Source: a virus. Taken from it: DNA of 24,712 nt. Made by a program: the position numbers and the translations under genes. The notes below the pieces were generated by a model. That model was not told the origin of the DNA. It saw only the letters and a program-made list of their open reading frames with translations, and made no database searches. Positions 7,511-24,712 of this stretch are shown here, piece by piece. Positions within the stretch are counted from its first letter, which is position 1. Each line of letters begins with the position of its first letter. The stretch is from positions 1 through 24,712 of IMG/VR virus record IMGVR_UViG_3300017776_000178, one strand, 5' to 3'.

Positions 7511-8830
7511 TTACGGCTCATCTGGGTAACCATCTCCATCTGGCAAGGAACCACCAGCAAGGTCTTCTACATCAGCCCAACCTTGAACTTCGATTGGTTG
7601 ATCTAAAGCAGCAGCACCAGACACAATATAAGAAGTACCATCCATACCAGTCAAGAATACTCCTGAAATTCCGTCATCTGCTCCAGTAGCAGCAGTAAAC
7701 ATTAGTCCTTGATCGGTAGTTGAAGCTCCTCCAATTTGAGCAGAGAAAGTTAAATCTACAGTTTCATTATCATCTAAGCCTTGGGAGAAACTTTGGCTAT
7801 CCAAAAGAGCGCCCGTAAGAACAAACTTATTTCGGACCTTGGTTCCATCTTTAACCTCAATATCAATATTGGTTGTTTTATTACCAGCGCTTCCAGTTAA
7901 AGCAAATTCAAGTGCTCCAGTAGTATACTCATTAACTAAGCTACTAATGTTGACAGTAACGTCAATTGGGAATTGAACAGGTTTAGCATAAGCTCTTTCT
8001 GTCCCAAGAGATTCAATGACTTCGCGAGCAAGAGGCACATCTATAGAGCAAGATTGAATAGGCATCGTTGCGAAATTAACTCCACCTATAGCCGTGCCAC
8101 TGGTGAGATTACTAATTTGGTCGTCAACAAAAGATACCGAAACATCATGAGGTCTTAAGACAGCATGTCCTACTTCTCCAGTGTCAGGTGGAGGCAAGAG
8201 AACTAATCCAGAATGAGTCCTCTCTCCTTCAAGATCAAGAGAAGGATTAAATAATCCAGATTGACATCCCGTCCAAAAAACAACATTAGAAGCTTGCACT
8301 TCTAAATCAACCCTAGGAATTTCTCCTACAGAAAGGTTTACAGAGTAGCTATTAATGAAACAGTTTCCAAATCCAATAACATCATGGCTATCTTCTTCTG
8401 TATTCCATTTGCTTGAGGTAAAAGCGTCTTCTCCTTCTTTTACTGTCGCAATAAAGATATTTCTTTGAGATTGAGTTGGGTCTTCATTAATAATTGAAGA
8501 TATCATCTGGGTATCAGCACCAGAAGAGTTATCAAAACCTAAAGCTAACTCATTCTCTCCATTCCCTAAGAAATAACCTAAAGACAAAGTTGGATCGATT
8601 TCTGATAATCTTACAGTAGAGATTCTAGCTAACTGACCAAATTCACGCACATCTTGACGACTCCCAGCGAGATCAATCTCAAAAGAGGCGTTGTCAATTC
8701 TGTGTAATTGATGTCCAGAAATTGTTTGCCGATCTCTACTACTATTAGTTCCCGTGTGGAAAATATCCCACCCAGTTGGGGTAACATATACCGCTTTACT
8801 TTGTGATATTACTCGTGTTCTTGTCGCCAT
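7511..8830 (-). CDS. Second tail-tube-like protein, paralogue of its neighbour (439 aa)
   Basis: It is clearly homologous along most of its length to the protein at 8874-10109. Shared blocks include TRVISQSKAVY near the N-terminus, DLAGSRQDVREFGQLARI, VIGFGNCF, SVNLSVGEIPR, PLAREVIES, and SQSFSQGLDDNETVDLTFSA followed by QIGGAST. The protein is beta-rich. It has a longer C-terminal tail after the last shared block, ending in an acidic Pro/Gly stretch (LPDGDGYPDEP). Codons in shared blocks differ mostly at third positions, so the duplication is old and both copies are under selection. It may be a second tube subunit, a minor tube protein or a distal tube ring. The only clear exit signal is the terminator just downstream. 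Confidence 0.7.
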   Translation of the reverse strand: MATRTRVISQSKAVYVTPTGWDIFHTGTNSSRDRQTISGHQLHRIDNASFEIDLAGSRQDVREFGQLARISTVRLSEIDPTLSLGYFLGNGENELALGFDNSSGADTQMISSIINEDPTQSQRNIFIATVKEGEDAFTSSKWNTEEDSHDVIGFGNCFINSYSVNLSVGEIPRVDLEVQASNVVFWTGCQSGLFNPSLDLEGERTHSGLVLLPPPDTGEVGHAVLRPHDVSVSFVDDQISNLTSGTAIGGVNFATMPIQSCSIDVPLAREVIESLGTERAYAKPVQFPIDVTVNISSLVNEYTTGALEFALTGSAGNKTTNIDIEVKDGTKVRNKFVLTGALLDSQSFSQGLDDNETVDLTFSAQIGGASTTDQGLMFTAATGADDGISGVFLTGMDGTSYIVSGAAALDQPIEVQGWADVEDLAGGSLPDGDGYPDEP

Positions 8831-8873: not shown

Positions 8874-10109
8874 TTAAGATCCGTGTGTGATAGGCTGAGT
8901 AGCGTCAGCAGTAGTATTAGCATTCTTTGCTGCGGTTGTCCTAGTTATAGTGTCATCTGCTTTTAACTTCGTCATAAATAAACCTTGATCAGAAGTACTC
9001 GCACCACCAATCTGAGCTGAGAACGTCAAGTCTACAGTCTCGTTGTCATCCAGACCTTGAGAGAAGCTTTGACTATCTAATACAGCACCCTTCAGGGTGA
9101 ACTTCATTTGTTCTGCTCCACCTGCGTTCAGAGCTACAGAAATATCAGTTGTACGATCTCCAGCAGTTCCAGTAAGAGCATATTCAAGAGCGCCTTCTCC
9201 AAACTCAGTAACGAGAGCAGACATGTTCATGGTCACATCAATTGGAAACTGAAGTGGCTTTGCATAAGCTAGTTGGGTTCCAATAGACTCAATAACTTCA
9301 CGGGCAAGAGGAACGTCAATCGAAACAGACTGAACAGCACTAAGGCTTGTATCGAACTTTTGTCCACCAATTCCTCCCGCAGTACCTTTAGTTGTAACTC
9401 CTTCGTTGTTAGCGAAACTTAAGGTAATATCGTGAGGCTTAAGAACCTTAAGTCCACCATCTAAATCTGCACAAACTTCAGCAGTTGGCAAGTCAATGTT
9501 GGCAGTAGTAGCAGGTTCAGCCCTAGTTCCATCTAAATTCAAACTAGGAGAAATTAATCCTTCACGATCATTTGAATAAAAGACTACGTTAGAAGCTTGC
9601 ATCTCAATGTCAGCACGGGGGATCTCTCCGACAGAAAGGTTAACAGAATAACTACTTAAGAAGCAGTTACCAAATCCAATAACATCAGATGGAGTTTGTG
9701 CAGCAAATCCTACAGCATCGTCGCCTTCATCGACTACGCCTACAAAGATATTATTTTCTTTTTTATTAACATCTTCGGTTAAGAAAGCTGAAATACACTG
9801 CGAGGTATTGTCGTCTGACTCATTAAATCCAAGATGTTTTTCGTTAGCGCCAGAGTTAAGATAATAACCGAAGGAAAGAGTGGGGTTAATCTCAGACATC
9901 CTGACTGTACCAATCCTAGCCAACTGTCCAAATTCACGAACATCTTGACGACTCCCAGCTAAATCAATCTCATAAGAGAATGTATCGACTCCTTGAAGCT
10001 GATCAGCCTCAACTGTAAATTTGGTGTTAGCACCTCCATTCGTCCAACCCGTAGGTGTTAAATAAACAGCTTTTGATTGGGAAATTACTCGTGTTCTACT
10101 ATTAGACAT
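8874..10109 (-). CDS. Major tail tube protein, putative (411 aa)
   Basis: It is the first gene after the neck and tail-terminator block, where tailed phages encode the major tube subunit. It is beta-rich and neutral, with the same N-terminal and core blocks as its downstream paralogue (TRVISQSKAVYLTPTGW; FGNCFLSSYSVNLSVGEIPR; ESIGTQLAYAKPLQFPID). At 411 aa it is longer than typical single-domain tube proteins (about 150-250 aa), so an extra domain is likely. Codons here are more C/G-ending than in the 7511-8830 copy, which would suit the more abundant subunit. The 43-nt gap to the paralogue holds no hairpin. The ATG lies downstream of an A/T-rich leader with no Shine-Dalgarno. Confidence 0.75.
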   Translation of the reverse strand: MSNSRTRVISQSKAVYLTPTGWTNGGANTKFTVEADQLQGVDTFSYEIDLAGSRQDVREFGQLARIGTVRMSEINPTLSFGYYLNSGANEKHLGFNESDDNTSQCISAFLTEDVNKKENNIFVGVVDEGDDAVGFAAQTPSDVIGFGNCFLSSYSVNLSVGEIPRADIEMQASNVVFYSNDREGLISPSLNLDGTRAEPATTANIDLPTAEVCADLDGGLKVLKPHDITLSFANNEGVTTKGTAGGIGGQKFDTSLSAVQSVSIDVPLAREVIESIGTQLAYAKPLQFPIDVTMNMSALVTEFGEGALEYALTGTAGDRTTDISVALNAGGAEQMKFTLKGAVLDSQSFSQGLDDNETVDLTFSAQIGGASTSDQGLFMTKLKADDTITRTTAAKNANTTADATQPITHGS

Positions 10110-18337: not shown

Positions 18338-18346
18338 TTGTTACAC
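18338..18346 (-). promoter_or_regulatory. GTGTA-motif site before the portal gene
   Basis: The minus strand reads TTTAGTGTAACAATTG. The motif overlaps a perfect 10-bp palindrome, AACAATTGTT (18333-18342). The predicted leader to the portal ATG is about 2 nt. The palindrome could be a protein-binding site or chance. Confidence 0.4.
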
Positions 18347-18375: not shown

Positions 18376-20277
18376 TCAAATAGTAAACGGGATAAATGTA
18401 GCTGTAGGTTTTTTCTCAGCCTTAATATGTAAAGAATCAAAATACACTTTAGCAAACCAATTCCCTAGGATCAAGGCAGAGTAAGAGTCTTTACGCGCTC
18501 TATTCGGCCCCTTCTGTCTTCGGATGTTTTGTGGTAGATTGAATGACTGCGAACCTTGGGGGTTTGTAGTAACCTCAATGTTAGCACATTCTGACTTTGT
18601 AAGTTCAATGTTACTTTTCTGTTGATCAAGAAGGTCGATCATTTTTGCTCCTTTGGAGGTAGCTGTAATTTTATTATCCCACTTTATATCATCAATAGGT
18701 AAATTCTTTTTCCTTTGCTGGTCGAAGTGATCGTCCACCGCTCTGGAAGCAAACAGTATTCTTTTATGATCTATAGCTGCTTGTAACATCTCATTACCAC
18801 TTCTAATCCAGTTAACTGTAGGTTTTCTTAAGATACAGTATTTTTTTTCCTTTAGATTGTATTGATTCTTAAACTGCATAATATCATTATGCCATTGATC
18901 AGGTTTTTCTAAGTCCACCTCTATAACTCCGATATCAACCTTAGCTTTTTTAAACAACTGGCTTTCATTACAAGAATTAATAAATTGAACTCCTCCGTTG
19001 TAGTCACCGCATATCCCAACAATGTTAAAAGATTCTATAAGATACAGGAAGTACTTCATATGGTCTTTTAAGGACACTCCAGCCAAAGCATAACTATGAA
19101 CAAGACAAACCTTCTGTTCTTCCCTCAGAACCTTAAATACGTGCATAGCGAAGTGGTCAGCACTTGTGTTACCCGCCCAGTTAGGGTCAAAAGCAAGTAA
19201 GTAGTCATCACTTGGGTTTCCTACGACTTCAACAGCAGGAAATTCTCCATCAGCAATAGTGCAAGCCGCCATTTTAGACAATCTAAAGTAACCATCACTC
19301 TCATCTACAAATTGAGCACCAAACTCTCGTTTGAACTGCATTTCGGACATAGTTTCTTTCGCTTGTTTGAGTAAGTTTTGATCATATAACCTAGTAGGAG
19401 CACAATCATAACTTAACTGCATTATTAATCTATAAGCATCATCCGCAGCTTGTTCATCATCATCATTATTATTTCTATTTTGATCAAATTCTCCAAGAAT
19501 AAGTCCCTCATACTTCTTGTACAGCTTAAACATATACTCAAATTTGAAGGATGGAGATGAAAGTATTATAAGTTTGTTATTGGGCCATACATACCTCTCA
19601 TTCTCTTTCAGCTCGCCCTTGTCGATTAGGCGGGATTCTAGTTTATGTAGTTCCTCCCTTTCAATAGGGTTCTCTACAACTCCAAGGAATGGTATGATAA
19701 CTTCATTGAATATCTTTTCTGGTATTGTTAAGAACTCATCTAACACTATCCTATTAAATCGAAATCCACGTAATCGTTCTCCGTTAGCTAGCGGAAGGGC
19801 TATCGCACGGCTATTACCAATTTTCAAGGTCCACTGGTCAGTTCCTTTTGTGATTTTAACCCCGCATTCTTTTACAAGCTTTGCCTCTGGCTTGCTAAGG
19901 ATGTCCTCCATCTTCTGGAAAATTTGTTTTGATTGCCTAAAGCTACCTGCAATAACACCAATATTAGCATTGGGGTTTAGTAGACATTCAAGTAACACAT
20001 AAATAGCTGTAGAGAAAGTCTTAGACATACCACGGGAGAATACGAACATCGAATAGTCCGATACCATCATCCCCTTAATAGCCATAGCTTGAAATGGGAA
20101 TAATTTTACCCCTAAAAATAGCTCAGAGGTAAATGCAATATTAGCTCTTAAGAATTTATATAATAAATACTTTGCTTCCTCGTCAGGCAAATCGCCTTCA
20201 AGTGTTTTTAAATAATTATTAAATTCCGTAGCGGAGTGATCATTTCGATACCGCTGTTTTCCTTTCTGCCATGCCAT
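18376..20277 (-). CDS. terL: Terminase large subunit (633 aa)
   Basis: This is the DNA-packaging motor with N-terminal ATPase and C-terminal nuclease. A Walker A-like P-loop reads FSRGMSKTF at residues 80-88. Walker B is RIVLDEF (D180, E181), and a coupling motif LIILSSPS follows at 236-243. The RNase H-like nuclease is marked by LAFDPNW (D363), GICGDYNGG (D425) and a late acidic position at KDSYSAL (D597), the expected spacing for a TerL nuclease. The ATG is complementary to 20275-20277 and overlaps the upstream nuclease gene by 38 bases. The next in-frame Met is about 65 residues in, beyond conserved-looking sequence, so this start is the best choice. It is followed directly by the portal gene. 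Confidence 0.93.
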   Translation of the reverse strand: MAWQKGKQRYRNDHSATEFNNYLKTLEGDLPDEEAKYLLYKFLRANIAFTSELFLGVKLFPFQAMAIKGMMVSDYSMFVFSRGMSKTFSTAIYVLLECLLNPNANIGVIAGSFRQSKQIFQKMEDILSKPEAKLVKECGVKITKGTDQWTLKIGNSRAIALPLANGERLRGFRFNRIVLDEFLTIPEKIFNEVIIPFLGVVENPIEREELHKLESRLIDKGELKENERYVWPNNKLIILSSPSFKFEYMFKLYKKYEGLILGEFDQNRNNNDDDEQAADDAYRLIMQLSYDCAPTRLYDQNLLKQAKETMSEMQFKREFGAQFVDESDGYFRLSKMAACTIADGEFPAVEVVGNPSDDYLLAFDPNWAGNTSADHFAMHVFKVLREEQKVCLVHSYALAGVSLKDHMKYFLYLIESFNIVGICGDYNGGVQFINSCNESQLFKKAKVDIGVIEVDLEKPDQWHNDIMQFKNQYNLKEKKYCILRKPTVNWIRSGNEMLQAAIDHKRILFASRAVDDHFDQQRKKNLPIDDIKWDNKITATSKGAKMIDLLDQQKSNIELTKSECANIEVTTNPQGSQSFNLPQNIRRQKGPNRARKDSYSALILGNWFAKVYFDSLHIKAEKKPTATFIPFTI

Positions 20278-21193
20278 GAACTTTTTTTTCTAAATGATAT
20301 TGAACGTCAACGTGCCAAAGGCGTTGCCCGTGATGTAGTATCTTGGGAATAATTTTCTTTGCACCCGCTCTTGAGTAAGCAAAAACAAACTGTATGTTTT
20401 CTGGGTAGTCTATCATGAGACTACGAACATTGTGCCATAAGTAACCTAAGTTCGATTTAAACTTCGATACTTTGTTTTCTTCCTCGATTTTTTCAATAGA
20501 TGACTCGACAACAATGAACATGTAAGAATCAAACTGGACACAACGATCCATTTCGCGCCTGAATCTTTCAATATCTTTTCCAAATGTTTGTCTAAAATCA
20601 TCTTGAGCTTTTCTATCTATAAAGGTTTTTGAGTAATATTCTCCAGCGGCAGTATAATCACCGAAGTCTAATTTGTTCTTTACACTATTATCGAAGTTAA
20701 GAGGTTTTTGTTCTCTAGTATCTACAAATATTTGCATATCTTGACTTTCTTGCTCCCAGAAGTTTTTGGGTAAATTTTTGGTAAACCAAGATTTTATTCC
20801 CAAGTCCTCAGAGAACTCAGAGTAAGATGCCCACATTTTTCGATAGTAATCGATGTTAGGCATTTGAGCCAACATATAGTATAAATCTGGTGGGGTAAAT
20901 TTAACGTCCTTCTTCTCAAACCTCTCGCGGATATATTTGATTAAGTAATTTTTCGCTTTGATAGGGGAAGTTGTTTTCAACCAAGATAAATAATTATCTA
21001 CATTATTAAAATCTTCTGAGAAGTATTGGTCATAGTTCTTGAACTGTAACAATTCTTTTGTATAAAGATCTCTTTTAGCATAATACTCAACATAATATTC
21101 TCCAATGGAAGTACTATGCGCTTTAAGATGGGCGTGGAAGCTTCTGCGATTATCGAAAGACTTGCCACATACCCTACAAACAAATTCACTCAT
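20240..21193 (-). CDS. C2H2 zinc-finger protein with ERCC4/XPF-type nuclease domain (317 aa)
   Basis: The N-terminus carries a textbook C2H2 finger: C6-x2-C9-x12-H22-x3-H26. A middle helical part (about 40-145) follows. Residues about 153-235 match the XPF/ERCC4 nuclease signature: VDTREQKPL (D158, R160, E161), FGDYT (G178, D179), then IDRKAQDDF (D193, R194, K195, D198), which corresponds to the family's GD-x(n)-ERK-x3-D motif with Asp for Glu. ERCC4-type nucleases cut branched DNA (flaps, junctions). Its place between putative small and large terminase genes suggests a role in packaging, such as resolving branches before or during translocation, or a mobile homing-type origin. Its ATG overlaps the upstream stop by 4 bases and its 3' end overlaps terL by 38. 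All the expected catalytic residues appear present. Confidence 0.75.
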   Translation of the reverse strand: MSEFVCRVCGKSFDNRRSFHAHLKAHSTSIGEYYVEYYAKRDLYTKELLQFKNYDQYFSEDFNNVDNYLSWLKTTSPIKAKNYLIKYIRERFEKKDVKFTPPDLYYMLAQMPNIDYYRKMWASYSEFSEDLGIKSWFTKNLPKNFWEQESQDMQIFVDTREQKPLNFDNSVKNKLDFGDYTAAGEYYSKTFIDRKAQDDFRQTFGKDIERFRREMDRCVQFDSYMFIVVESSIEKIEEENKVSKFKSNLGYLWHNVRSLMIDYPENIQFVFAYSRAGAKKIIPKILHHGQRLWHVDVQYHLEKKVHGMAERKTAVSK

Positions 21194-22248
21194 AATAATT
21201 CTTTTTTGGATATCCCCAAGATCCTTGCTTTATAGTCATCCATATTCTCTAGTCTATCAGCTTCTTCTTCAATTAATTTGTTTTGAAGTTCAGCCATCAT
21301 AATCATACGATCTCTTTCTTCTCGATCTTGGAAGGCTTCAACTAAAGCGAAGATAGATCCATTTTCTTCACCCTTAGCTTTCAGTCTTGCAGTTCTAGAT
21401 CCATTCAAGTCTTTCGTTAGAGATTCGATGCGCTTCTCGCACTGGTTAAGCTCTTCACTGGTGGCCTTGATAATCTCCGTCAGACGCATTGTGATGTCTC
21501 TTTCGTTGTCTTGGTCGTCCAGTAGTGCATTAAGCTTGTCAATACGCATCTGGATATGTTTCTGGCGCACGTAGTTAGCACATACAGTCACGTATAGATT
21601 CAACTCGTCGTTAGTGAGGTCAGGCTTATCCCAAATAGCACGAACGAACTCGCTTTCGAATAAGTTTCTGTCAGCTAGAGTTGCATACTGATTAATAAAA
21701 TGATTAAAGCGAGGGCTTTTAAAATAAAGAATTAATTGCTCTACTAGTTTCTTTTGTTTTGTTTGGAGGTTTAGTTCCTCTAGACGAGTGCCGCAGAAGT
21801 TGTTGATCTTGACAATTGCTCTGTTTATAGATTTAGGTGGATTCCACTTCTCCTTTGTGACAATTTCGTTGTCATCTACAATCTCTGGTCTATAAGTTTT
21901 TAAGAAATCAACAATAACCCTATGCTTCATACTCAAAGGCTGAACATCACGATCCTTGAAGGTGAGTCGGGCAATCTCTAATGCATTCATGCCGACCTCA
22001 ATGTTGTCAGTCATCAAGAACTCTTTTTGTTCTTTGTTTAAATGAACCTGCTCTACTTTCGGGGCAAGTGATGTATTTGCTTTTTTGTCTTGTTCAGCTA
22101 AGAATTTCCTAACTGCACGACCCTGTTTTGATCTCCCGTCAATATCTTCATCATCAAATATCTTTCGGGTTATATACATTAAGTCAGGGTTCTTTTTAAA
22201 TAGCTTAAGAATCTCCTCTTTCTGTTCTTCTGTTAAATCATATATCAT
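21190..22248 (-). CDS. Putative small terminase subunit or related DNA-binding protein (352 aa)
   Basis: No diagnostic motif was found. The N-terminus looks like a helix-turn-helix segment (LTEEQKEEILKLFKKNPDLM followed by ITRKIF), with a basic stretch after it. A second HTH-like region around VGMNALEIARLTFKDRDVQ follows at about 85-105. The C-terminal third is a long charged coiled coil (about 235-350), the arrangement expected for a small terminase that recognises packaging sites and oligomerises. It is twice the usual TerS length (150-200 aa), so this is tentative. It is the only gene in the window with a perfect AGGAGG, 7 nt before the ATG. Its start overlaps the sigma-like gene's stop (TAATG) and its stop overlaps the nuclease start. 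Confidence 0.5.
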   Translation of the reverse strand: MIYDLTEEQKEEILKLFKKNPDLMYITRKIFDDEDIDGRSKQGRAVRKFLAEQDKKANTSLAPKVEQVHLNKEQKEFLMTDNIEVGMNALEIARLTFKDRDVQPLSMKHRVIVDFLKTYRPEIVDDNEIVTKEKWNPPKSINRAIVKINNFCGTRLEELNLQTKQKKLVEQLILYFKSPRFNHFINQYATLADRNLFESEFVRAIWDKPDLTNDELNLYVTVCANYVRQKHIQMRIDKLNALLDDQDNERDITMRLTEIIKATSEELNQCEKRIESLTKDLNGSRTARLKAKGEENGSIFALVEAFQDREERDRMIMMAELQNKLIEEEADRLENMDDYKARILGISKKELL

Positions 22249-22922
22249 TATATATCCTCCTCTTTTACTAACTTGGCTGCTATATTGTAAAATTTCTTTT
22301 TTAGGTTGTTTATTTGTTTGTATCTAGGTGTTTTTCTTTTACTTGTATCTCGCTTAAACCCGAACTTCTTAGCAACCTCCGCTTCATCCATGTGGTCTAT
22401 AAACAAAAGCTTATATATCTCCTTATGCTTGTCGTTCAACTCAGCCATAACCAGAAGATGTATCTTAGCCGTTTTCTTATCGTAATCTAATTCGTCTTCG
22501 TTTACTCTATCTTTAACCGATATTAAAGAATCCAAAGAGACTGGCATCTTTAAGTGAAATGCACTCTGCTTTTTGTTCTTCCATTTAGCGAAGTCACCAC
22601 ACTCTTCATCCTGCTCTTTACTCTTAGTGAAACTACACTCATCCCCACCCAAATAAAATGAACACCGCAAACATGGTTTAGCAAAGTTTCCATAGTGGTT
22701 CCTTATCAGATTCTTTATCTGATTACTAATCAACATAGAAGCCCAAGGCTTAAATGTCCTTTTCTGATCCCACAAATGCCACTTTTTATAGATATGAGTG
22801 CGGATTATTTGAGACACATCGTCATAATCCAACCAAGCTATGGAGTTAAGCTGCCACTTGGTTCTATATCTATTTAAAAGTTCTTCTATCTCTGGAATAA
22901 GGTCTTCATACCTTTTATCCAT
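22248..22922 (-). CDS. Sigma-70-like protein with a four-cysteine insertion (224 aa)
   Basis: Residues about 30-78 resemble sigma region 2: YDDVSQIIRTHIYKKWHLWD, then FKPWASMLISNQIKNLIRN, with the DL/W-NxxxxxxR pattern of -10-binding helices. Residues about 160-212 resemble region 4: ELNDKHKEIYKLLFIDH, then EAEVAKKFGFKRDTSK, a helix-turn-helix. Between them lies a Cys cluster, C84-x2-C87-x8-C96-x11-C108, which probably binds zinc. This suggests a phage-encoded sigma factor or RNA-polymerase-associated regulator. The ATG at 22920-22922 is preceded by an in-frame TTG at 22923-22925, which would add one residue. The gene overlaps the zinc-ribbon gene by 8 bases. It could drive the GTGTA-motif sites (see findings), which is inference. 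Confidence 0.65.
   Translation of the reverse strand: MDKRYEDLIPEIEELLNRYRTKWQLNSIAWLDYDDVSQIIRTHIYKKWHLWDQKRTFKPWASMLISNQIKNLIRNHYGNFAKPCLRCSFYLGGDECSFTKSKEQDEECGDFAKWKNKKQSAFHLKMPVSLDSLISVKDRVNEDELDYDKKTAKIHLLVMAELNDKHKEIYKLLFIDHMDEAEVAKKFGFKRDTSKRKTPRYKQINNLKKKFYNIAAKLVKEEDI
22256..22261 (-). promoter_or_regulatory. Strong Shine-Dalgarno AGGAGG, the only clear one in the window
   Basis: The minus strand reads AGAGGAGGATATATAATG: AGGAGG, 7 nt, ATG. It lies inside the end of the sigma-like gene, where the same bases encode KEEDI. Every other minus-strand start I inspected lacks a convincing Shine-Dalgarno. Confidence 0.8.
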
Positions 22923-23289
22923 CAATGTCTTGAATTCTAGATGAAGAGCAATCAGCTTGACTTTGTTTGATCATAGCGTCACCATCAGGCAAATTTGGTG
23001 CTGGCCTAGGAGTCCTACTCCGATTAGCGTCTTCGGGAGTAGCAGACTTCCAAAGATCAGTTAAAGTTGTTTGTTGTGAGCTAGCTTCTGCAATGACATC
23101 CCTTTTCATTTTATTCAAATCAAAGGTGCGAGGACTTTCTTCCTCACGTTCAATTTCAGCAACAGCTTCTTCGCGAGCTGGCGCAGGAGCAGCCGATCCA
23201 ATCGTCGTACCACACGACGCACAAAACTTGGGTTTAGTCACCTCGTACACGTTTTTGTGGCCGCAGGAAGAACAGAAAACTTTATTCAT
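22915..23289 (-). CDS. Small zinc-ribbon protein of unknown function (124 aa)
   Basis: The N-terminus is a CxxC...CxxC zinc ribbon (C6, C9, C23, C26; CSSCGHKN and CASCGTT). A Pro/Ala/Glu-rich linker and a low-complexity, probably disordered C-terminal part follow, with a short basic helix FDLNKMKRDVIAEA in between. Zinc-ribbon plus flexible tail fits an adaptor that touches nucleic acid or RNA polymerase, but nothing specific can be claimed. It lies between PhoH (8-nt gap) and the sigma-like gene (overlap), so the three are probably co-transcribed and perhaps act together. No Shine-Dalgarno. Confidence 0.65.
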   Translation of the reverse strand: MNKVFCSSCGHKNVYEVTKPKFCASCGTTIGSAAPAPAREEAVAEIEREEESPRTFDLNKMKRDVIAEASSQQTTLTDLWKSATPEDANRSRTPRPAPNLPDGDAMIKQSQADCSSSRIQDIDG

Positions 23290-23297
23290 ATCAAATT

Positions 23298-23972
23298 TTA
23301 TTGATTTTGGGCTAATAATTCAATTTTTTCTACAAGATAACTGATAATTTTATCTCTTATCACATCTTCTTTCCCAAATTCTACACTATACACCCCTTTT
23401 TTGGAACTCTGCTCGTCTTCAAACAAAGACTTAAGCCTATCAAAACCACTATTCCTAATGTCACTCTGCAAACTATCCCCACACACAAATAACTTACTGC
23501 CACGACCTATCCTTGTAAGCACAGTAGTCAATTCTCTCACACTCATATTCTGAGCCTCATCCACAATAACCACTTTCTCTCTCCAAGTACATCCGCGCAA
23601 AAAGTTTATCGGCTCCGCTTCCAGTACCCTTTTGTTTTTTAATTGCTCTTTCTCTGGCTTATTTAATAACTCATCAATCTTATCAAGTAACGGAGCCATG
23701 TATGGCCCAAACTTATCATCCATGTCCCCTTTCAGAAAACCTATCCCCCTATCCGCACTCTCCACCACACTCCTCAAATATAATATTTTTAAGTTTTTAT
23801 CCGAATTATACAAATCTAATGCAGAATAAACAGAAAGAAATGTCTTAGCTGTTCCCGCTGGACCCCCAACAAACACAATCCGTGTTTTGTCATCAGTCAT
23901 GATGTCATAGAATTCTTTTTGTTTTTTTGTCAATTCAATATGACCCAACAACAAGCTATTATCTTTTGCCAT
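23298..23972 (-). CDS. phoH: PhoH-like P-loop ATPase (224 aa)
   Basis: Walker A is GGPAGTAKT (residues 36-44), Walker B is VVIVDEAQN (134-142), and a PhoH-family GDSLQSD block lies at 165-171. Length and motif order match compact phage PhoH proteins. PhoH-family proteins are RNA-linked ATPases, and a role in RNA handling during infection is plausible; the specific role in phages is unsettled. It is the first gene of the minus-strand block. Its ATG lies 13 nt after a GTGTAATAG site. A 10-codon ORF ending 6 nt before this ATG (23979-24011) might be a leader peptide, but nothing else supports it. Confidence 0.93.
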   Translation of the reverse strand: MAKDNSLLLGHIELTKKQKEFYDIMTDDKTRIVFVGGPAGTAKTFLSVYSALDLYNSDKNLKILYLRSVVESADRGIGFLKGDMDDKFGPYMAPLLDKIDELLNKPEKEQLKNKRVLEAEPINFLRGCTWREKVVIVDEAQNMSVRELTTVLTRIGRGSKLFVCGDSLQSDIRNSGFDRLKSLFEDEQSSKKGVYSVEFGKEDVIRDKIISYLVEKIELLAQNQ

Positions 23973-23982
23973 TTGTTTTTAT

Positions 23983-23991
23983 CTATTACAC
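23983..23991 (-). promoter_or_regulatory. GTGTA-motif site before phoH
   Basis: The minus strand reads TGTGTAATAG. By the tape-measure geometry the transcript would begin about 4 nt before the PhoH ATG. It carries T rather than A before the GTGTA core. Confidence 0.4.
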
Positions 23992-24020
23992 ACCAAAGCA
24001 TGTAGTTTCATTTTATTATA

Positions 24021-24033
24021 TGTCGCACCGACA
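24021..24033. repeat. Short inverted repeat, possible operator
   Basis: TGTCG CAC CGACA: perfect 5-bp arms around 3 bases, directly beside a minus-strand TATAAT. It is too short to be a terminator and lacks a T-run. Its position next to a -10-like box suggests a regulator site, but the arms are short enough to be chance. Confidence 0.3.
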
Positions 24034-24182
24034 CTTTTTATATGTAAAATAACTTCTTTATAGTATTCACCACCCCCCGCGCTGTGTGTGTCAAGCACAA
24101 AAGTCAAAAACTTTGAGAAAACCCCTCCCCTATAAAAAAGTTTAAATAATACAAAAAAAAGCTTTTAATTGTCAGGCATCTG

Positions 24183-24191
24183 TGCTATACT
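24183..24191 (+). promoter_or_regulatory. Extended -10 promoter of the first plus-strand gene
   Basis: TGCTATACT is an extended -10 (TGN then TATACT). Bases at -35 spacing are poor (TTTTAA or TTTAAT), as is common with extended -10 promoters. The hexamer ends 6 nt before the ATG at 24198, so the predicted +1 is that A. Confidence 0.6.
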
Positions 24192-24197
24192 ATGCCC

Positions 24198-24443
24198 ATG
24201 AAAGAAATTACCTCAATCCCAGCTTTTGAGTCTGTCCCCACCTCATCAGTCTCTAACATTGAATTCGTTGAAATAGTTGATGAGCTTCGACCTGATCAGT
24301 GGGCTGATTGGGATGTAGTGTTCTCTTACAACGGAAAAGAATATGTAGGCTCCTTACAGGCTGGAGTTCACAATGCAGAAGATTTCCATCACGATGTCAT
24401 CGAATACGTCCAAGAAAAAATAATTCAAAATAATTCAAAATAA
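24198..24443 (+). CDS. Small acidic hypothetical protein (81 aa), probably from a leaderless mRNA
   Basis: Not recognised. The frame opens at ATG 24192, but the ATG at 24198 is preferred because the -10 hexamer ends at 24191 and the predicted first transcribed base is 24198; the earlier ATG would lie upstream of the mRNA start. The protein is acidic, with a compact middle, WADWDVVFSYNGKEYVGSL, that suggests two or three strands, and a C-terminal helix. No cysteine, signal or membrane segment. Small plus-strand genes divergent from a virion block are typical of early phage genes that adjust host functions, which is inference. Confidence 0.65.
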   Translation: MKEITSIPAFESVPTSSVSNIEFVEIVDELRPDQWADWDVVFSYNGKEYVGSLQAGVHNAEDFHHDVIEYVQEKIIQNNSK

Positions 24444-24444
24444 T
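24417..24444. repeat. Short tandem 10-bp repeat
   Basis: The unit TAATTCAAAA occurs twice in direct succession (24421-24440), flanked by partial copies. It covers the last codons and stop of the 24198-24443 gene (IIQNNSK). Probably replication slippage in AT-rich DNA; no function is suggested. Confidence 0.6.
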
Positions 24445-24456
24445 AGCAAAGAAAGC

Positions 24457-24485
24457 TTGCACCACTCAAAAAAATAAAGTATAAT
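24457..24485 (+). promoter_or_regulatory. Sigma70-type promoter of the second plus-strand gene
   Basis: TTGCAC (24457-24462), a 17-bp spacer, and a perfect TATAAT (24480-24485). Six bases separate the -10 from ATG 24492, so the predicted +1 is the A of the start codon. This is the same geometry as at the preceding gene. Confidence 0.8.
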
Positions 24486-24491
24486 ACCCAC

Positions 24492-24712
24492 ATGACAGCA
24501 AACAAAGAACACAAGTCAGCAAACTACGACCGCACCGTAACTTGGGATGATGGTCGCACAGTCAACTACAACGAACACTTTGAGGTCGAGGGCTTCACTA
24601 AAGTATCTTCCGTCTACCCTTCCGAAAGTTCTATAGCTAGGAACCTTGAACAGCGCAAGGCTTTAGGCGGTGGCAAGTCTTATGGCTACCGTTACAAGTC
24701 TATGCAGAGAGA
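24492..24712 (+). CDS. 5' part of a small hypothetical protein, cut by the window edge
   Basis: An ATG at 24492 opens a frame of 73 codons with no stop before the edge. The start is set by the promoter 6 nt upstream. The protein begins MTANKEHKSANYDRTVTW and continues with a polar, Tyr/Ser/Arg-rich sequence, including the basic Gly-rich phrase KALGGGKSYGYRYKSM. Codon use is more C-ending than in the minus-strand genes, which suggests good expression. No family is recognised. It is probably an early gene from its own leaderless transcript. Confidence 0.65.
   Translation, partial: MTANKEHKSANYDRTVTWDDGRTVNYNEHFEVEGFTKVSSVYPSESSIARNLEQRKALGGGKSYGYRYKSMQR

Follow-up and report, generated by a model that had tools for sequence, protein, structure and literature searches.

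In a marine tailed phage represented by a 24.7-kb fragment (IMG/VR virus record IMGVR_UViG_3300017776_000178; the whole stretch analysed, 24,712 nt, is called the window), two consecutive short genes at the right end of the fragment carry a −10 box at the same distance from their ATG. The locus raises the question whether this spacing is a coincidence or marks genes whose mRNAs begin at the start codon. The leftward genes of the window span positions 116 to 23972 and include tape-measure-like, prohead and capsid-region, terminase, sigma-like factor and PhoH-like genes. A divergent junction lies at 23972–24198, and the last 0.5 kb consists of two short rightward ORFs (Table 1). Two tandem paralogues (7511–8830 and 8874–10109), with 67% DNA identity over about 400 bp (8275–8687 versus 9578–9978), are probably duplicated virion proteins. 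No close cultured relative of the phage was found. As relatives, 80 viral contigs encoding a PhoH with 61–99% identity were used, one of which (G001) is 118 kb long, and early regions totalling 274 kb were sampled from 74 related contigs of marine phages. Genes in the relatives were called by a simple script.

Table 1. Position of the promoters and genes discussed in the window.
Feature	Position	Strand	Remarks
Phage sigma-like factor	22248..22925	−	Pfam Sigma70_r2 above cut-off; divergent sigma-70 region 2
PhoH-like gene	23298..23972	−	First leftward gene at the divergent junction; PHROG 170, E 1e-60
GTGTAA, candidate late promoter of phoH	23986..23991	−	GTGTA[ACT] class
A/T-rich tract, UP-like, upstream of first promoter	24142..24162	+	Read directly; matches the A-rich −55 to −38 of 118 cassettes
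Weak −35 TTTTAA, first early gene	24163..24168	+	17 nt spacer to −10; T at −34 in 90% of the family
Extended −10 TGC-TATACT, first early gene	24183..24191	+	TATACT at 24186–24191; sigma70-type
Early ORF 1, 81 aa, predicted leaderless	24198..24443	+	Homologues with 68–79% identity
−35 TTGCAC, second early gene	24457..24462	+	17 nt before −10
−10 TATAAT, second early gene	24480..24485	+	Sigma70-type; 6 nt, then ATG 24492–24494
Early ORF 2, predicted leaderless	24492..24712	+	Continues past window end; homologues with 46–92% identity

Both ORFs are real genes, because substitutions between homologues concentrate at third codon positions (106/67/169 differences at the first, second and third position for ORF 1 and 41/37/98 for ORF 2). 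ORF 1 gave no convincing family match. Its TATACT is separated by 6 nt from the ATG at 24198–24200, a gap which was kept in the window and at nine homologous loci. A second in-frame ATG, at 24192, abuts the −10 box directly (TATACT-ATGCCC-ATG) and was rejected as start; ACGCGC is found there in L001, L004 and L037, and ACTCGC in L074. Since the ATG at +6 is conserved and the ATG at 24192 is not, the start of ORF 1 was placed at 24198. For ORF 2, the next possible start codon after 24492 is at 24702. All homologues of either ORF show −10-N6-ATG, including those of ORF 2 that are relocated in the early array or placed under other promoters. The first-pass annotation had described two plus-strand genes with the same −10-6 nt-ATG spacing, and this was borne out at 24186–24200 and 24457–24494.

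The window contains three TATAMT-N6-ATG sites where shuffling predicts 0.40, and none of 100 shuffles reached three. From the window alone the case against chance is modest; it becomes strong through the recurrence in relatives. In the 274 kb of early regions, TADAMT-N6-ATG was located at 225 sites (86 without near-duplicates), 132 of them in near relatives (40 non-redundant) and 93 in far relatives (46 non-redundant). Other spacings mostly had 0–9 non-redundant sites each, about 3.5 on average, and the reverse strand about 0–3. The Poisson probabilities of the excess at spacing 6, about 1e-27 for the 40 sites and 1e-36 for the 46, are rough, since the sites are related, and related contigs, even de-duplicated, are not independent samples. 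The earlier expectation that the same spacing would recur before further early genes was strongly confirmed in the early regions of the relatives, and the first-pass reading of the two genes as leaderless is supported.

When complete promoters were considered (at least 9 of 12 matches, a 16–18 nt spacer and an ORF after it), 106 of about 216 lay at exactly 6 nt from the ORF, with 8 at 5 nt and 13 at 7 nt. The same scan showed no peak in T4 DNA (none at spacing 6) or in pelagiphage HTVC010P (one), and three promoters at spacing 6 in the first 50 kb of phiYS40. Other viral contigs, fetched as background, had 29 at spacing 6 versus about 16 per other spacing, a slight excess among phages at large. 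A secondary peak at spacing 0 is the ATGCCCATG form and most of spacing 11 represents overlapping second −10 boxes; neither was retained as a separate class. The peak at spacing 9 is partly a GTT-ATG form, found mostly in one ORF family, in which the ATG, 9 nt after the −10 box, is possibly preceded by a 3-nt leader. The GTT-ATG family (MKN/MKM-TTTTT-RFDHxLYG) was seen in L001, L003 and L077, at offsets of 2488, 860 and 2505 from the phoH start. Nearly all early genes of these phages have the promoter so placed that their mRNA should start at the ATG; the minority arranged otherwise includes the GTT-ATG genes and some ORFs with neither a Shine-Dalgarno (SD) site nor an adjacent promoter.

The arrangement extends beyond the closest phages and beyond the early array. 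The early region of a distant relative, with a terminase 51% identical, opens with TATACT-CCTCAC-ATG at the same place. In G001, spacing 6 is also present at replication genes outside the early array (103889–104590, 98187–98399 and 109965–110411), for example TTGACA...TAGAAT-TCCTGC-ATG at 104590 and TACAAT-AACGCG-ATG at 98399.

A logo built from 118 non-redundant cassettes shows an A-rich stretch from −55 to −38, a −35 box related to CTTGCA/CTTGAC, a (TG)N-TATAMT element and W at −6. In these cassettes, T occupies −34 in 90%, while position −1 is C in 82% and a pyrimidine in 96%. There is no room for an SD site because the −10 box occupies −12 to −7; an SD-like motif was found in 2.6% of the cassettes versus 3.9% of their own shuffles. 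Family-wide, 12% of long genes have an SD site, versus 6% in shuffles. RNA polymerase usually initiates on a purine after a pyrimidine, 7 or so nt past the −10 box, so that the A of the ATG is the expected +1 position. Codons 2–7 of the cassette ORFs contain 49% A, 25% C and 11% G. Leaderless translation is enhanced when CA repeats follow the start codon (PMC9031893), and A/C-rich, G-poor codons of this kind are favourable for it. Low RNA structure or A-richness just after the ATG was rejected as a special mark, as the phage's other genes show both. The gap between a stop codon and the next leaderless ATG has a median of 57 nt, in which a promoter only just fits.

Promoter, spacing, the C at −1, absence of SD, conservation, coding status and block swapping (described below) are all seen at the sequence level, and they point to the following scheme. 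The two sites in the window would open an array of early cassettes with one gene each. Every cassette is composed of an A-rich element, a sigma70 promoter with a spacer of ~17 nt, a 6-nt discriminator whose last base is usually C, and the ATG. The RNA polymerase of the host, carrying the main sigma factor, would read the array soon after infection, an early timing suggested by gene position and promoter type. The RNA would begin on the A of the ATG, as the geometry, the −1C/+1A initiator and the missing SD suggest, yielding a 5′-AUG mRNA without leader or SD, and ribosomes would take up the 5′-terminal AUG, probably as 70S. As the internal ORFs of a read-through RNA have no SD, translation is expected of the gene closest to the 5′ end. 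We infer in this way the transcript ends, the use of host sigma70 and leaderless translation, and consider it highly probable that host sigma70 RNA polymerase would make single-gene leaderless early mRNAs from the cassette array. The suggestion that the fusion preserves translation of early mRNAs under altered canonical initiation is speculation. A simpler reason would be that SD sites are few in this phage family, the promoter-start fusion providing a self-contained cassette for each gene.

Blocks of at least 86% identity in the 50 nt upstream were shared by 98 pairs of unrelated ORFs, in 70 distinct combinations. In L002, the 50 nt preceding the ORF 2 ATG recur with 100% identity in front of an unrelated ORF, and sharing can extend into the first codons, as with MKEITS in the window and L039. 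Because the same block often precedes unrelated ORFs, promoter and start codon appear to travel as one unit, and recombination anywhere in the promoter-ATG block would import a new ORF ready for expression. Among 60 early ORF families, three had a Pfam match and at most five a PHROGs match. A strong hairpin across the −35 box, for example GATCTTGCGCTTCGGCGCAAGATC, was observed in cassettes of L075, L056 and L023, at offsets of 558, 1880 and 775 from the phoH start; this type is possibly a combined terminator and promoter.

Extensive swapping, its reach into the first codons and the few cassettes with a hairpin across the −35 box would also fit a block that is kept mainly as a recombination unit, similar to the PeSL cassettes of T4, with the fixed spacing as a by-product of copying and leaderless translation as incidental. 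This explanation is improbable, however, in view of the diversity of −35 box, spacer and discriminator among the 86 non-redundant spacing-6 sites, and of 403 pairs of homologous ORFs that have unlike promoters and yet keep the spacing. The G001 replication genes at spacing 6 outside the early array also argue against it, and hairpins of at least 6 bp were present in 4 of 108 cassettes only, for which reason a PeSL-type stem-loop was rejected as a general cassette part.

Less likely again is that the true starts lie elsewhere, upstream or several nt inside the ORF, with the TATAMT boxes as decoys or a result of composition bias and the genes expressed from a leadered polycistronic mRNA. The short gaps between early genes do make read-through likely, and one weak upstream promoter match is present at 24037–24064, but promoter-like matches elsewhere in 20000–24712 are at chance level (14 versus 13.1). 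Composition leaves the peak at exactly 6, the −1C and the absent SD unexplained, and T4 and HTVC010P lack the peak in the same scan. Chance as the source of the two-gene coincidence, which could appeal to the window itself showing two early genes only, is refuted by the three window matches against 0.40 expected and above all by the recurrence at 225 sites in relatives.

Besides the leaderless early cassettes, a second class of promoter was recognized in the window. GTGTA[ACT] is located 8–11 nt before the ATG of 12 non-redundant late or structural genes, versus 0.07 expected per position, and GTGTAA/GTGTAT is probably a phage-specific late promoter. In addition to the phoH site, a (TTT)AGTGTAA/GTGTAT box occurs shortly before structural genes at 18346, 16367, 13057, 7458 and 5350, all on the minus strand. 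If the transcription start is placed as in T4 late promoters, late mRNA leaders would be only a few nt long. The sigma-like protein encoded near phoH, conserved at 60–97% in the relatives, may read these late promoters. A wider and tentative idea, which we hold to be somewhat doubtful, is that nearly the whole life cycle would proceed without 5′ leaders, with host-sigma early fused promoters followed by phage-sigma late GTGTAA promoters and the promoter-start fusion as a universal adaptor; such an adaptor would allow an incoming ORF to be expressed at once without SD.

For the host, the GTDB match was a contig of a MAG labelled Flavobacteriaceae (G017, CAKZOO01), the one MAG that contains a relative. 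A spacing scan of this MAG gave 81 sites versus 81 reversed-pattern controls, with no excess at 6. The bin contains several phage-like PhoH genes, and the G017 contigs C20, C42 and C50 (L561, L562 and L560) derive from two or more related phages; the phage contig in the MAG is probably a binning artefact. Compared with other Bacteroidota genomes, the tRNA-Leu of G001 reaches no more than 83% identity along the greater part of its length, and its exact copy in the CAKZOO01 bin sits on a 3-kb contig. Such a mixed bin makes host assignment from this MAG unsafe, and the assignment was dropped in view also of the lack of a spacing excess and of the tRNA-Leu identities.

In bacteria, leaderless genes are marked by a TANNNT box whose first T lies some 12 bp upstream of the start (PMC3160421), and sigma70-type leaderless genes without SD are found in Deinococcus-Thermus and Actinobacteria (PMC3160421, PMC12340547). 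The phage cassettes resemble these in having the first T of the −10 box 12 bp before the start and in the lack of an SD site (2.6% versus 3.9% in shuffles), and their −1C/+1A initiator would agree with the 5′ end of bacterial leaderless mRNAs at the start codon. Unlike the bacterial genes, they have a conserved −35 box and A-tracts, and consist of short tandem early ORFs with a promoter each, promoter and ORF being shuffled. In Thermus phage phiYS40, the mRNAs are largely leaderless, of the middle/late class, and IF2/IF3 levels are changed (PMC3594737). The marine phages are likewise predicted to have leaderless mRNAs; unlike the middle/late class of phiYS40 in its Thermus host, that of these uncultured phages is putatively early.

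PeSL cassettes of T4-like phages are reportedly the subject of Arbiol 2010 and Comeau 2014. As outlined in PMC4503421, they are early promoters between small hypervariable ORFs and apparently mediate shuffling. The marine array shares with them an early promoter common to unrelated ORFs (98 pairs), whereas most cassettes lack a stem-loop (terminator) coupled to the promoter (present in 4 of 108) and the start codon forms part of the unit. Because the stem-loop is missing in most cassettes, the array was not classed as PeSL. The cI mRNA of lambda, made from PRM, begins at AUG and is leaderless. PMC3160421 names lambda as the first example. In contrast to this single gene, the predicted leaderless mode of the marine phages would be a genome-wide early programme. 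A report of a leaderless early-gene array was not found in the open-access literature, which is weak evidence of absence. Leaderless expression has precedents in some bacteria and in a few phages; as a system comprising the whole set of early genes it is, as far as we found, apparently undescribed.

If the proposed reading is true, this phage family would possess an early array of leaderless single-gene cassettes, and leaderless initiation would be a main route of expression outside thermophiles and Actinobacteria. TATAMT-N6-ATG could then serve as a rule for finding where tiny orphan genes begin in viral metagenomes, and the cassette as a compact promoter-start part for synthetic work. The array would also offer a concrete model for gene acquisition and swapping in phage early regions.
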